From Mariniblastus sp. (GTDB lineage: Bacteria; Planctomycetota; Planctomycetia; Pirellulales; Pirellulaceae), in assembly GCA_028823415.1 (NCBI GenBank), contig JAPKBL010000015.1, positions 1-64,000 of the forward strand: a stretch of 64,000 nt of DNA. The letters are read 5' to 3'. The stretch's first letter is position 1. Each line of letters begins with the position of its first letter. Both the position numbers and the translations under genes were made by a program. The notes under the pieces are model-generated. The model was not told the DNA's origin. It made no database searches and saw only the letters and a list, made by a program, of their open reading frames with translations. Of this stretch, positions 3,098 to 62,945 are shown one piece after another.

Positions 3098-3799
3098 TCA
3101 ATTTCCCTTCAACTGAACCTCTCTTAACCAAGCATGTTCAATGCTGCGGTTACTTCGTTGCTTGCCGCCAACACGCTCCATTGGCTCATCTTGAGTGTCT
3201 GGATATTCGACAAACACGCCACTAAGAAACGATTCGTTCCGCTTGATACCTAGTTTCTCGAACATTTCCGGTGTCCGAAATTGACCGCCGCTGGACCAGT
3301 AGGTTCCCATGGTATGAGCGGTCAACAAGAGTAATAAATTTTGAACCATCGCAGCAGCAGCAGCCAGATGCTCGTCATCAATCGTGACCTGCTTGGGTAG
3401 GCCAATCGAATTGTCCACTCCTTCAAGCTGTTGGCTTTCTCCGCGGAATTGCGGAATCCACGTAGTAATAATCAACGCACCACACGCCGACAACATCGCC
3501 GGCAATTTGTTAGAAGCTTTGACATCGGGGAACCAATCGTGGAATCGGCTGGCAATGGATCGACAATCTTCGTGCCAAATGACATGTATTCGCCAGGGCT
3601 CCGCAATGCCGTCCTGATCTCGATTGTAATGAAATGGAGCCCAGCCGGCGGTCTGGATCGAATCGATCACTTTCCGATCGCAAATTTCAGCGGTTTCTTT
3701 AGAGAAATAAACAGGCCGAGTAACATCACCAAGAACTTTGAGTGTCTTGCGTGCCCTGATGATTTCGGAAAGGACTTGGGCATCGGCTTCTGATTGCAT
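3098..3799 (-). CDS. Nitroreductase family protein
   Basis: The frame opens at GTG 3811, but ATG 3799 has GGTGGAG six bases upstream and is the better start (233 residues). The fold is the FMN-dependent nitroreductase type: an N-terminal RKTLK-like basic FMN segment, WAPFHYNRDQDG with AEPWRIHVI (the usual PW.F.V. strand), AAAAMVQNLLLLLTAHTMG (the dimer helix) and a C-terminal region ending in RSNRSIEHAW. Members reduce nitro compounds, quinones or enones with NAD(P)H. It is convergent with the oxidoreductase upstream. The substrate is unknown. Confidence 0.85.
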   Translation of the reverse strand: MQSEADAQVLSEIIRARKTLKVLGDVTRPVYFSKETAEICDRKVIDSIQTAGWAPFHYNRDQDGIAEPWRIHVIWHEDCRSIASRFHDWFPDVKASNKLPAMLSACGALIITTWIPQFRGESQQLEGVDNSIGLPKQVTIDDEHLAAAAAMVQNLLLLLTAHTMGTYWSSGGQFRTPEMFEKLGIKRNESFLSGVFVEYPDTQDEPMERVGGKQRSNRSIEHAWLREVQLKGN

Positions 3800-4118
3800 C
3801 TCGAACTCCACCGCAATTCAAAGGGCTGCTTGATATATGTTTAAAATTTAACACCGGCAAACGCGTATTCGTTTACTGGACTTTCTCGCCAGGCTTCGCT
3901 TAAAAAGTAATCGTCGAAGCAAGACAAACAAGCCCCCTCGCTTACGATTGTCTTCAACAAATGCTAGAATCGGAGCAACGCGGTTTGGCCGATGGCAAAC
4001 ATCTGCCAGTCAATCAAGTTCATTTGCACCATTGAGCGTCAACTCTGGCACTTAATTGAATGCCGTTTTTAGGTTCAATCTTCTTCATTCGATCATACTT
4101 TTGGTTAAGGATTCCCCC
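3800..4118. other. Intergenic region between divergent genes, no gene seen
   Basis: About 320 bases separate the nitroreductase and M16 protease starts, which are divergent, so both promoters should lie here. No convincing -35/-10 pair, hairpin or small coding frame stands out. The part nearest the nitroreductase is AT-rich (around 3835-3850). Confidence 0.5.
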
Positions 4119-6914
4119 GTGAGTAAACATTCTAGTCTTCCTCGGTATTGCCAGTTCGCTTATCGAGCAGCCCTTGCATTGATTGCCGTTGCAATGATCG
4201 GTCAGACGACCGAAGCACAAGAGCCTAAGGAAATGTTCGAAGTCGAGGGAATCACAGAGTATCGACTCGACAATGGCGTCAAGCTCTTGTTGTTCCCCGA
4301 CAACTCCAAACCACAATTCACGATGAACATGACCGTCAACGTTGGCTCGCGACATGAGGGTTATGGAGAATCCGGTATGGCTCACTTACTGGAGCATATG
4401 CTGTTTCGGGGAACGGACAAGCATCCGGACATTCCCGAATTGCTAAAGAACCGGGGTGTTTTGAATATGAACGGCACCACTTCGATCGACCGGACGAACT
4501 ACTTCGAGACACTTCCGGCGCCCGATGGCGACCCAAAAGTAGCCAATGATAACTTGAAGTTTGCCATTGAAATGGAATCCGATCGCTTAATCAACAGCTG
4601 GATCAAACCAGAGCACCTTGCAAAAGAAATGACCATTGTGCGAAGTGAGTTTGAGCGCGGCGAAAACAATCCACAGAGCATTTTGATTCAGCGAATCATG
4701 ACGGCCGCCTTTCAATGGCACAATTATGGAAAATCGACCATCGGCAACCGAAGTGATATTATGCGAGTACCTGCGACGAATTTGCGGGTCTTTTATCGCA
4801 AGTATTATCAACCGGACAACATTACCCTGGTAATTGCAGGTAAGTTCGACAAAGACCTCGCACTTGATTTAGTTGAGAAAAACTTCGGATCGATTCCGCG
4901 CCCGGAGCGGAAGCTACCCAAGACTTACACCGAGGAACCAGCTCAGGATGGAGAACGTACTGTAATCCTAAGACGCTCCGGAGATGTTCAGTTTGTGGGC
5001 CTTGGCTATCACATTCCCTCTGCGTCCAGCACTGAGTACGCCTCAGCACAAGTGCTCGCACGCATTCTCTCCAACCAACCCTCGGGGCCTCTTTACAAGG
5101 CCTTGGTTGAAACCAAACTGGCAACCAGCGCTGGTGCTTTTGCCCGGATTGGATATGACCCCGGGCTCATGCTCGCGTACGCAGAAGTTCCAGTCGACAA
5201 AGACCTCGTCAAAGCAAAAGATATTCTCGTTGAGCAAATCGAGTCAATCGGCTCAGCCGGGGTTTCAGATGAGGACGTAAAAAGAGCTGTCGTTGCTATT
5301 TCCAAAGGGCGTGAACAACAGTTTGCCAACACAGAACGATTTGCGACAGCCTTGAGTGAATGGGAATCATATGGCGATTGGCGATTGTACTTCCTCCACC
5401 GAGACAGACTCGAAGCGGTCACTCAGGCGGACGTCGAGGAATTTGCCAAGAAATATATGATCCAATCCAATCGAACCGTTGGCCTTTTCTTCCCGTCCGA
5501 AGAAACGGAACGGATTGCGATCGATGCTGAGAACAACGTTAAAAAAATGGTAGCGGACTACAAAGGCCGCGAAGCAATGTCCGCCGGTGAAGCATTTAAC
5601 CCTTCCCCCATGAACATCCAAAAACGAACGACCTTCGGCGTACTCAAGTCGGGACTTAAATTTGCACTACTTCCCAAAGAGACTCGCGGAGATCGCGTGA
5701 CGCTCAGCGGAACCATCCACTACGGCGATGAAAACAGCCTCAAAGGGAAACGGGCGGCCGCTGATTTACTGCCACAGCTACTATCACGAGGCACGAAAGA
5801 ACTTGGATTTCAAGAGTATCAGGATGCTTTGAACAACCTGAAAGCGAGCCTCGGTTTCAGCGGCTCGCTGGGCACGCTGAATTTCAGCCTGCAAGCCGAA
5901 CGAAAGAACCTAATCCCGGCACTCGCGATCATGCGTCAAGCACTCCGAGAACCTAAATTGGACCCAAGCGATATGGAAATCATTCAAAGCGAAATGGTTA
6001 CCGGAATCGAATCGGGCATGTCCGATCCAATGAGCCTTGCCATCAATGAGTTCTCTCGGCGAATGGATCCGCAACCTACCGACAATGTCCGATACACCCC
6101 CACGATGAAAGAAGAAGTTCAAGCTCTGAAAGATGTAAGCATTGATGATGTGCGCAGCCTTCAAAAGAACTTTCTCAATGGTCAATTCGGAGAAGTTGCT
6201 GTTGTCGGTGATTTTGATCCTACCGCGACATTAGCCGAACTAAACAAAGTATTTGACGGTTGGAAGACCGAAATGCCCTTCAAGCGAATCGAGGAGCCAG
6301 CGAATCTGGAAATCAAAGCGGAACGGGTAAACCTTGATACACCCGATAAAGCCAATGCAATTTACATTGCCGGCGTTTCGACTGACATCAATGAAAATCA
6401 CCCGGATTATGAAGCGATGCTGATCGGTAACTACATCATGGGTGGCGGACCGTTGTCTTCACGGATCGCCGATCGAGTTCGCAAAAATGACGGACTCTCC
6501 TATACGGCAATGACTCGATTCCAAGCCGACGATCAAGACGAACGCGGGATGTACATGATGTTCTGCATTTCAAATCCCATGAATACTGAAAAAGTCGTCG
6601 CAACAGTAAAAGAAGAGGTCGATCGCATGCTTGCGAGTGGCGTCACCGGAGATGAACTAGAAAAAGCGAAGGAAAGTTTTCTGATCAACCGCCGGGGAGG
6701 ACGAGCACGTGATGGACAACTAGCCAGCGAGTTGCTGTCCAATATGAAAACGGGACGCACGATGCAATTCCAAAATGCGAGCGATGATAAAATTTCCACG
6801 CTAACCAAAGAACAAGTTGACGCCGCGATGAAAAAAGTCATCGCACCGGATCGCTTGCTGATTATCACAGCGGGAGATTTTAAGAAGGGAAAATCAGAAT
6901 CCGAAGACAAGTAA
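4119..6914 (+). CDS. Secreted M16 family zinc metalloprotease, two-domain
   Basis: This is an insulinase/PqqL-type peptidase. The frame is open from 4056, but GTG 4119 follows an AAGGA site and begins a clear signal peptide (basic start, AALALIAVAMIG core, cleavage near TEAQ), giving 931 residues. The inverted zinc motif HLLEH starts at base 4383, after GESGMA. The distal zinc ligand is expected in VRSEFERGENNP about 75 residues later. A second M16 domain follows in the C-terminal half (from about 5600) without a zinc motif, as is usual for the inactive lid half. A strong terminator follows. It probably acts in the periplasm. Confidence 0.93.
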   Translation: MSKHSSLPRYCQFAYRAALALIAVAMIGQTTEAQEPKEMFEVEGITEYRLDNGVKLLLFPDNSKPQFTMNMTVNVGSRHEGYGESGMAHLLEHMLFRGTDKHPDIPELLKNRGVLNMNGTTSIDRTNYFETLPAPDGDPKVANDNLKFAIEMESDRLINSWIKPEHLAKEMTIVRSEFERGENNPQSILIQRIMTAAFQWHNYGKSTIGNRSDIMRVPATNLRVFYRKYYQPDNITLVIAGKFDKDLALDLVEKNFGSIPRPERKLPKTYTEEPAQDGERTVILRRSGDVQFVGLGYHIPSASSTEYASAQVLARILSNQPSGPLYKALVETKLATSAGAFARIGYDPGLMLAYAEVPVDKDLVKAKDILVEQIESIGSAGVSDEDVKRAVVAISKGREQQFANTERFATALSEWESYGDWRLYFLHRDRLEAVTQADVEEFAKKYMIQSNRTVGLFFPSEETERIAIDAENNVKKMVADYKGREAMSAGEAFNPSPMNIQKRTTFGVLKSGLKFALLPKETRGDRVTLSGTIHYGDENSLKGKRAAADLLPQLLSRGTKELGFQEYQDALNNLKASLGFSGSLGTLNFSLQAERKNLIPALAIMRQALREPKLDPSDMEIIQSEMVTGIESGMSDPMSLAINEFSRRMDPQPTDNVRYTPTMKEEVQALKDVSIDDVRSLQKNFLNGQFGEVAVVGDFDPTATLAELNKVFDGWKTEMPFKRIEEPANLEIKAERVNLDTPDKANAIYIAGVSTDINENHPDYEAMLIGNYIMGGGPLSSRIADRVRKNDGLSYTAMTRFQADDQDERGMYMMFCISNPMNTEKVVATVKEEVDRMLASGVTGDELEKAKESFLINRRGGRARDGQLASELLSNMKTGRTMQFQNASDDKISTLTKEQVDAAMKKVIAPDRLLIITAGDFKKGKSESEDK

Positions 6915-61964: not shown

Positions 61965-62945
61965 ATGCTGAAAAGCTACCACTTGATAATCGGCGCGATG
62001 GTCGTCGCGATTGCCGGCTTCACGCTGCCTTTGTCGGCTCAAACGAAAACCGGCGTCGCTGCCAACAATCTCACCGTTGCCAAAAATATCTCAGCAGCAA
62101 GCGGACGCCCTATTTTCGCCATTGCCGGACAAAGCACCTGACCGCCGTGTGCAGTTTTACTGAAACGTCTAAACACCGATCAGTCCATTGCACCCATCGT
62201 GGCACAGTTCGTGCCCATAAAACTGGACGTCAGCTCTCCTGAGTACGCTCAATGGCGCCGAGACCACACGCCCCAAGGCAACGGCATTCCACAACTCTTT
62301 GTTGTTCGTGCCGACGGTGAAACGCTTTACGGACGATCAGGATCACTCCAGGGCCCGGACCTTCCAAACATGCTCATCGCCGCGCTGCAAAACTCCGGAC
62401 GTATTTTGTCTGCCCGCGAGGCTCAATCGCTTATTGAAGCGGCCGATAAGTTCGTCGAGGAAAAGGAAAAAGGGAATTACGAATCTGCGATCAAGGCAAT
62501 CAGTCGAGTCCGAAAAATCGGTGAACCGGGGCAGATCCCCAGTTATTCGAAACCCGCCATGCGCGTGAACAAATTAGTCCTCGAAACTGCCGACGAAGTC
62601 CGAAGCCAACTTAAAGAACTGGCAACCCAAATCGAATCAGACCAAGTGGATATCAAACTTGGTGCTATGCTGGCCTATTTAAAGCTTCGTCAGGACTTTG
62701 GTGCACTCAAACTCGTCAAATCCGACCTCGCTGGTTTTCAAAAAAAGTACACGCTCAAAGAAAACAAACAACTCACGCGTGAAGCAAAAATCATTGAAAA
62801 CGCTAATCAAGCGAACACCAAAAGCAAAAAAACGCGAGCGATTGAATCTCTTAACGAACTGATCGATCAAACAGAATTCGAACCGGTACGTAAAGAGGCC
62901 GAAAAAAAGCTTACAGAATTGCAACAAGAAATGGGGGCGGGCTAA
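61965..62945 (+). CDS. Exported thioredoxin-fold protein with in-frame TGA, candidate selenoprotein (U-P-P-C)
   Basis: From ATG 61965 the frame gives 326 residues if TGA 62139-62141 (codon 59) is read as selenocysteine. The N-terminus is a signal peptide (LIIGAMVVAIAGFTLPLSAQ). The segment before the TGA, GRPIFAIAGQST, and the U-P-P-C that follows it match the active-site strand and helix of thioredoxin-like proteins, where C-x-x-C is expected; the second Cys (62) is kept. LLKRLNTD, FVPIKLDV and the cis-Pro loop GIPQLFVVRADGETLYG follow in order. The C-terminal 170 residues are helical and charged. There is no other stop. The alternative is a nonsense-inactivated gene. No ribosome binding site is obvious. 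Confidence 0.8.
62139..62193 (+). promoter_or_regulatory. In-frame TGA plus candidate bacterial SECIS stem-loop
   Basis: The TGA is at 62139-62141. Seven bases later a lower stem pairs GTGCAGT (62149-62155) with ATTGCAC (62187-62193), seven positions including one G-T. After a 3/2 internal loop an upper stem pairs ACTGA (62159-62163) with TCAGT (62180-62184), and CG (62166-62167) can pair with CG (62177-62178) near the apex. Apical loop distance from the TGA is about 25 bases and a G lies at the apex, in line with bacterial SECIS elements. The pairing was found by eye, without energy calculation. Confidence 0.55.

Follow-up and report, generated by a model that had tools for sequence, protein, structure and literature searches.

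Thioredoxin-like selenoproteins with selenocysteine (Sec) at the first position of a UxxC active site are represented in Table 1 of PMC13188914 by Trx, a thiol:disulfide interchange protein of PF13098, DsbA-like proteins and SaoT. The sole Thioredoxin_7 entry in the accessible text of the selenoprotein inventories is the Trx7/PDZ selenoprotein (NF041199; PMC13188914, PMC9312934), which combines a CxxU motif with a PDZ domain. Planctomycete selenoproteins are known in general (PMC4807772), and the authors of deep-Sep stated that selenoproteins without Cys homologues may be missed (PMC12013277).

The locus described here lies on contig JAPKBL010000015.1 of a Mariniblastus genome, in a stretch of 64,000 nucleotides that was analysed as a whole (the window). 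Its predicted product resembles the UxxC selenoproteins of PMC13188914 in its thioredoxin fold and in the placing of Sec as the first active-site residue; the entries in the accessible text of that paper differ from it in belonging to other domain families, and none of them joins Thioredoxin_7 to a helical C-terminal domain. With NF041199 it shares a Thioredoxin_7 domain, but Sec is the second active-site residue in NF041199 (CxxU, with PDZ), whereas the window protein has UxxC and a helical domain. Membership of NF041199 was rejected on this motif, and no match to the model was obtained at E values up to 10.

By structure and also by profile, residues 28-146 were closest to AGR2/AGR3, ERp18 (TXNDC12), DsbH and bacterial disulphide-isomerase folds (Z about 12.4-12.8, rmsd 2.4-2.5 over 111-115 residues), with thioredoxins also among the closest solved folds. 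The AGR2/AGR3, ERp18, DsbH and isomerase structures align to the thioredoxin domain alone and leave the helical domain without a counterpart. Thioredoxin_7 is also the family of the DsbD gamma domain and of a DsbD-like protein of the same genome, which has its putative Sec at the same position; DsbD is a membrane electron carrier, whereas the window protein lacks such a membrane domain. In the chaperedoxin YbbN/CnoX, helical repeats follow the thioredoxin domain; CnoX is a cytosolic protein and is not known to contain Sec. A YbbN structure (3qou) was the top Foldseek hit of the whole model (E 1.8e-4), and the order of thioredoxin and helical domains is similar, but the overall superposition was poor (TM 0.26/0.30, rmsd 14.9).

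No NCBIfam model matched the window protein above chance. The accessible text of the 2026 and 2022 inventories (PMC13188914, PMC9312934) lists no UxxC selenoprotein with Thioredoxin_7, and that of deep-Sep (PMC12013277) contains no matching family. The suggestion in the original prediction that the protein may be new stands on the NCBIfam and inventory comparisons and on literature searches: the family is apparently unlisted so far, and an earlier listing among the planctomycete candidates of PMC4807772 is possible.

The gene and its TGA codon among relatives

The gene (61965-62945, forward strand) runs from ATG 61965 to TAA 62943-62945, and its sole internal stop is TGA 62139-62141, at residue 59. 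With this codon taken as Sec, the product has 326 residues and is found at full length in relatives. The TGA occupies the first position of a thioredoxin-fold C-x-x-C motif, giving GRPIFAIAGQST-U-P-P-C, and the resolving Cys62 is encoded at 62148-62150. The frame, coordinates and motif had been given correctly in the original prediction, which had also anticipated that gene callers would start at GTG 62199 and lose the N-terminus and the active site: in the table-11 ORF listing, the single ORF in this frame (62199-62945, forward strand, GTG start, 248 aa) lacks both, and this truncated ORF would be the product of standard gene calling. TGA is otherwise a normal stop in the window, where it terminates 11 of the 35 non-overlapping ORFs of at least 250 aa.

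Relatives were collected in several genome sets. In a first set of 60 genomes (its own and 59 relatives), matches were found in 27 genomes at 28 places; with TGA translated as U, the first active-site residue was U at 22 places and Cys at 6 (L024, L031-L035). Six relatives were 78-83% identical over nearly the whole protein, each with exactly one internal TGA, at the same codon. An alignment of 21 rows (A1), with identity to the window protein down to 26%, had TGA in 20 rows and Cys in one at the active-site column; Cys62, Pro109 and several glycines were invariant. A scan of named genomes gave 46 loci, overlapping with those of the relative-set searches, of which 43 carried TGA and 3 Cys (L107, L117, L124). 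Their titles named Mariniblastus, Rhodopirellula, Rubripirellula, Blastopirellula, Candidatus Anammoximicrobium and unplaced Pirellulales, with Mariniblastus in two titles among the closest relatives. The Cys at codon 59 that recoding predicts for TGA-free relatives was present in L024/L107, L117, L124 and others.

Two wider samples were searched. Matches at E 1e-10 or better were obtained in 38 of 396 genomes of the order (23 with TGA, 8 Cys forms with E below 1e-20, and 7 weak ones without the stop, which were not counted as Cys forms); the query profile consisted mostly of TGA rows near Mariniblastus and may favour TGA forms. In a phylum sample of 392 genomes, its own genome and four others matched, so that outside the order 4 of 391 genomes had a match: three were Cys forms from a different family within the same class, and the fourth was a distant TGA form (L168). 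From these searches the family, met here in the genus Mariniblastus, appears to belong mainly to the Pirellulales. In a tree built from 36 Sec-form and 11 Cys-form members, at least four label changes are required; given the weakness of many backbone forks and the meeting of long branches, either Sec or Cys may have come first.

The distant L168 (genome G419, from another class of the phylum) encodes an exported-looking thioredoxin with helical repeats, scoring 67.8 bits against the family profile, and its active site also carries TGA (YTDWUGYC).

Protein fold, redox partners and putative function

The translation, read by eye, begins with a signal-peptide-like N-terminus (residues 1-25, 61965-62039) ending in PLSA/Q. 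The thioredoxin-fold domain (about residues 33-146, 62061-62402) was assigned from Pfam, the model and the fold matches: Thioredoxin_7 (PF13899) scored 32.3 bits against a cut-off of 27, and all 21 members of A1 matched it at E 0.01. Thioredoxin_2 (PF13098; 16.2 bits, below its cut-off of 27, with 13 of 21 members matching weakly at E 0.01) and DsbH (PF03190, Thioredox_DsbH; 17.5 bits, below its cut-off of 27) were rejected. In the AlphaFold2 model (mean pLDDT 87.8), residues 1-32 were disordered, residues 36-142 formed the thioredoxin fold and residues 150-325 formed helices. Pro109 (62289-62291), invariant in 21/21 rows, is presumably the cis-proline that faces the active site in thioredoxin folds.

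The C-terminal helical domain (residues 150-325, 62412-62939, from predicted models) had been described beforehand as a long charged helical region, with the nuance that, predicted alone, it forms a folded all-helical domain (mean pLDDT 94.5). When structure searches were run with this domain alone, no hit reached E 0.001 and no Z reached 8. At least one family member (in genome G383) has a C-terminal SHD1 domain (46.6 bits).

Because a U-x-x-C thioredoxin fold is combined with an invariant resolving Cys and Pro, a thiol-disulfide oxidoreductase fits the protein, and it is somewhat likely to be a thiol/selenol-disulfide reductase or isomerase of the cell envelope. A candidate electron donor is encoded in the same genome. 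Seven Thioredoxin_7 matches were found there, three of them with a TGA: the window gene, the DsbD-like protein and a small thioredoxin.

The DsbD-like membrane protein (G000:C245:15880-17709; L129 1399-3228, also L135) has DsbD_TM and Thioredoxin_7 domains, and the active site of its C-terminal thioredoxin domain starts with a TGA codon (ADWUPTC); its relatives are at L136-L147, L150, L151, L157 and L164. The NCBIfam models nearest to it, TsoB and DsbD, scored far below cut-off. At the active-site position, 30 DsbD loci had TGA (17), Cys (12) or a site not found by pattern (one). A hairpin common to 15 of the 17 TGA loci follows the DsbD TGA, its stem showing A-U to G-C exchanges and its loop containing GU; its mean shuffle z was modest (-0.63 to -0.78). 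The small thioredoxin gene, at a contig edge (G000:C205:31971-32216; L133 1333-1809), likewise has an in-frame TGA (ADWUGWC).

Sixteen of 17 TGA-form genus relatives had a DsbD match containing one TGA or more, the position of the TGA being checked where loci existed. A putative Sec-bearing donor and acceptor thus co-occur in this genome and in the genus, and the two may work together.

Gene neighbourhoods were also compared. ORFs resembling moeA, Lnt and an AAA-type protein (names read from the sequence) are common to the six closest relatives, and the moeA-like and Lnt-like ones also occur in L087. Beyond the close relatives and L087 no neighbour was widely shared, except that 16 of 47 loci have Gfo/Idh-like neighbours, whose loose cluster may mix paralogues. 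In G383 (L127, G383:C82:118500-128500, at 3103-5942), tRNA-Sec lies between MsrB/MsrA genes and the SHD1-bearing family member, and the MsrA has a hydrophobic N-terminus.

It is quite possible, if on the doubtful side, that the protein is a real selenoprotein whose main work is something other than DsbD-fed disulfide reduction: a chaperedoxin-like holdase, methionine-sulfoxide or peroxide repair, or metal(loid) handling. The large, conserved helical domain is in keeping with such a role, as is the rank of YbbN among the whole-model hits, against which stands the poor overall match. The G383 gene beside tRNA-Sec, MsrA and MsrB is in line with repair, but Msr genes adjoined the family gene in G383 alone (seen twice, as L095 and L127) and at no other locus. 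Three TGA-form genomes of other families had no TGA in their DsbD match, which also favours another role, although only the match of G044 spans the active-site domain; those of G046 and G057, likewise outside the genus, stop before it. The U-x-x-C fold with its invariant Cys and Pro speaks for disulfide exchange.

Decoding genes and the downstream hairpin

The original prediction had called for sel genes in the genome, and tRNA-Sec (67.4 bits, anticodon TCA), SelB (368.9 bits) and SelD (262.9 bits) were all found over cut-off. SelA was the part that failed to appear: none was over cut-off in this assembly (265 contigs, 92.7% complete). SelA scored above 450 bits in 22 of 27 other genus members and above 480 bits in each of the six closest relatives, and for this reason the miss is likely a gap in the assembly.

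SelD (G000:C226:213-1115; L040 96-2318) is the C-terminal portion of an ORF of 740 residues. By eye, the N-terminal half of this ORF resembles an FAD/NAD(P)-binding oxidoreductase.

The missing SelA would also agree with a species that has lost Sec decoding, its gene decaying or its product truncated. This is very unlikely given that tRNA-Sec, SelB and SelD are intact in sequence, that three TGA genes of one fold are kept in the genome, and that SelA is so common in the genus while the assembly is incomplete.

The TGA form also tracks the decoding genes among relatives. In the order sample, tRNA-Sec was found in 22 of 23 TGA-form genomes (the sole exception being G316) as against 78 of 373 others (p about 2e-13, in tests that treat related genomes as independent), and in 2 of 8 Cys-form genomes. 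Among the 20 TGA-form relatives of the 60-genome set, 18 had tRNA-Sec, 17 had SelB over cut-off and 17 had SelA above 450 bits. Gaps were seen in G003 (80% complete; without tRNA-Sec, SelB and SelA), G023 (71% complete; without tRNA-Sec and SelB, with a SelA fragment) and G002 (89% complete; without SelB and SelA). The DsbD matches of these three also carry a single TGA each (its position was read for G023 only), suggesting that contigs are missing from these assemblies and that the Sec system itself has not been lost.

A candidate SECIS hairpin was predicted within the coding sequence at 62149-62193 (forward strand), 10-54 nt from the first base of the TGA. Over codons 60-80, degenerate codons of invariant residues were identical among seven close relatives in 13 of 19 cases; elsewhere the same comparison gave 4/23 (codons 30-58), 5/18 (codons 81-100) and 14/75 (codons 201-324).

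For analysis at the family level, 38 TGA genes less than 90% identical in the post-TGA stretch were taken from 47 distinct ones. RNAalifold returned no common structure for the ungapped stack of these genes, and per-gene folding was used in its place, as follows: 45-nt windows were folded along each gene and compared with 60 permutations in which synonymous codons were exchanged between genes at the same position, leaving the proteins unchanged. By far the strongest signal was at +15..+59 (mean -13.9 vs -9.9 kcal/mol, z about -11, 0/60 permutations as low). Weaker signals occurred at +39 to +57 (z -2.8 to -4.1) and in one upstream window (-21, z -2.4). In every one of the 38 genes, an apical loop fell within +29 to +41 of the first base of the TGA, in agreement with the accessible text of PMC13188914, where the loop of bacterial SECIS elements is placed 16-37 nt from the UGA. 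This shows a family-level RNA hairpin after the TGA, where bacterial SECIS elements lie.

The mean shuffle z was -1.98 in Sec genes as against 0.06 in eight Cys homologues; in raw folding energy Sec and Cys genes did not differ significantly (p 0.19), an effect of the higher G+C content of the Cys genes. The published bSECIS rule discriminated only weakly: its geometry was found in 34/38 genes, compared with 19-27/38 at seven control offsets, and geometry with the G (strict loop) in 17/38, compared with 4-16 at control offsets.

The hairpin of the window gene itself (6-nt loop, 27 nt after the TGA, MFE -12.1) was not stronger than its shuffles (z 0.19 at +15..+59, and -0.63 to 0.54 otherwise), and the consensus G was absent from its first two loop positions. 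Twelve of its 14 pairs are kept in all seven close relatives; since they are kept by identity or one-sided change, they provide no compensatory evidence for the 62149-62193 hairpin.

The open frame on either side of the TGA would also be expected if the codon were read as another amino acid, through suppression or code reassignment. That is highly improbable: Cys stands at the position in TGA-free relatives, TGA forms track tRNA-Sec, a hairpin lies downstream, and reassignment was rejected on the TGA that ends 11/35 long ORFs of the window. In so fragmented an assembly one might suspect an error of sequencing, or a pseudogene in which the stop arose by chance, but this is scarcely credible because the same TGA recurs in dozens of separate assemblies and in several genera, which excludes an error, and the remaining frame is open and conserved.

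Proposed mechanism and meaning for the family

TGA 62139 is almost certainly recoded to Sec, as the original prediction had proposed: judged by comparison of sequences, the claim is well supported by the conserved TGA, the pairing of Sec with Cys forms, the decoding genes with tRNA-Sec co-occurrence, and the hairpin of the family. The explanation as a whole, an exported Sec protein with a redox role in the envelope whose UGA is decoded by SelB and tRNA-Sec with the hairpin, is likely; within it we infer the export, the direction of electron flow, the donor, the client and the role of the helical domain.

The proposed sequence of events is as follows. UGA 62139 would be decoded as Sec by SelB and tRNA-Sec, with help from the RNA hairpin that follows it closely within the coding sequence. 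The resulting protein would consist of an N-terminal export signal, a Sec-Pro-Pro-Cys thioredoxin fold and the helical domain. Sec59 would attack a client disulfide (or another oxidised sulfur) while the client is held by the helical domain, Cys62 would resolve the mixed bond, and a donor, plausibly DsbD, would regenerate the active site. More speculatively, and rather unlikely at present, the Pirellulales may run a selenium-based envelope relay, from the Sec DsbD to the exported Sec thioredoxin-fold family, with the helical domains selecting oxidised clients.

Selenoproteins of this phylum have received little study, and the finding adds to them a family that seems so far unlisted and that is widespread in one order. 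Standard gene calls lose its active site, the Sec codon being taken for a stop, and searches based on Cys homologues may have missed it because the family is mostly Sec, with few Cys forms. In the samples searched the Sec form was commoner than the Cys form, and the family therefore bears on why Sec is kept. The Sec DsbD of the same genome makes a selenium-based reducing chain in the envelope a testable hypothesis.
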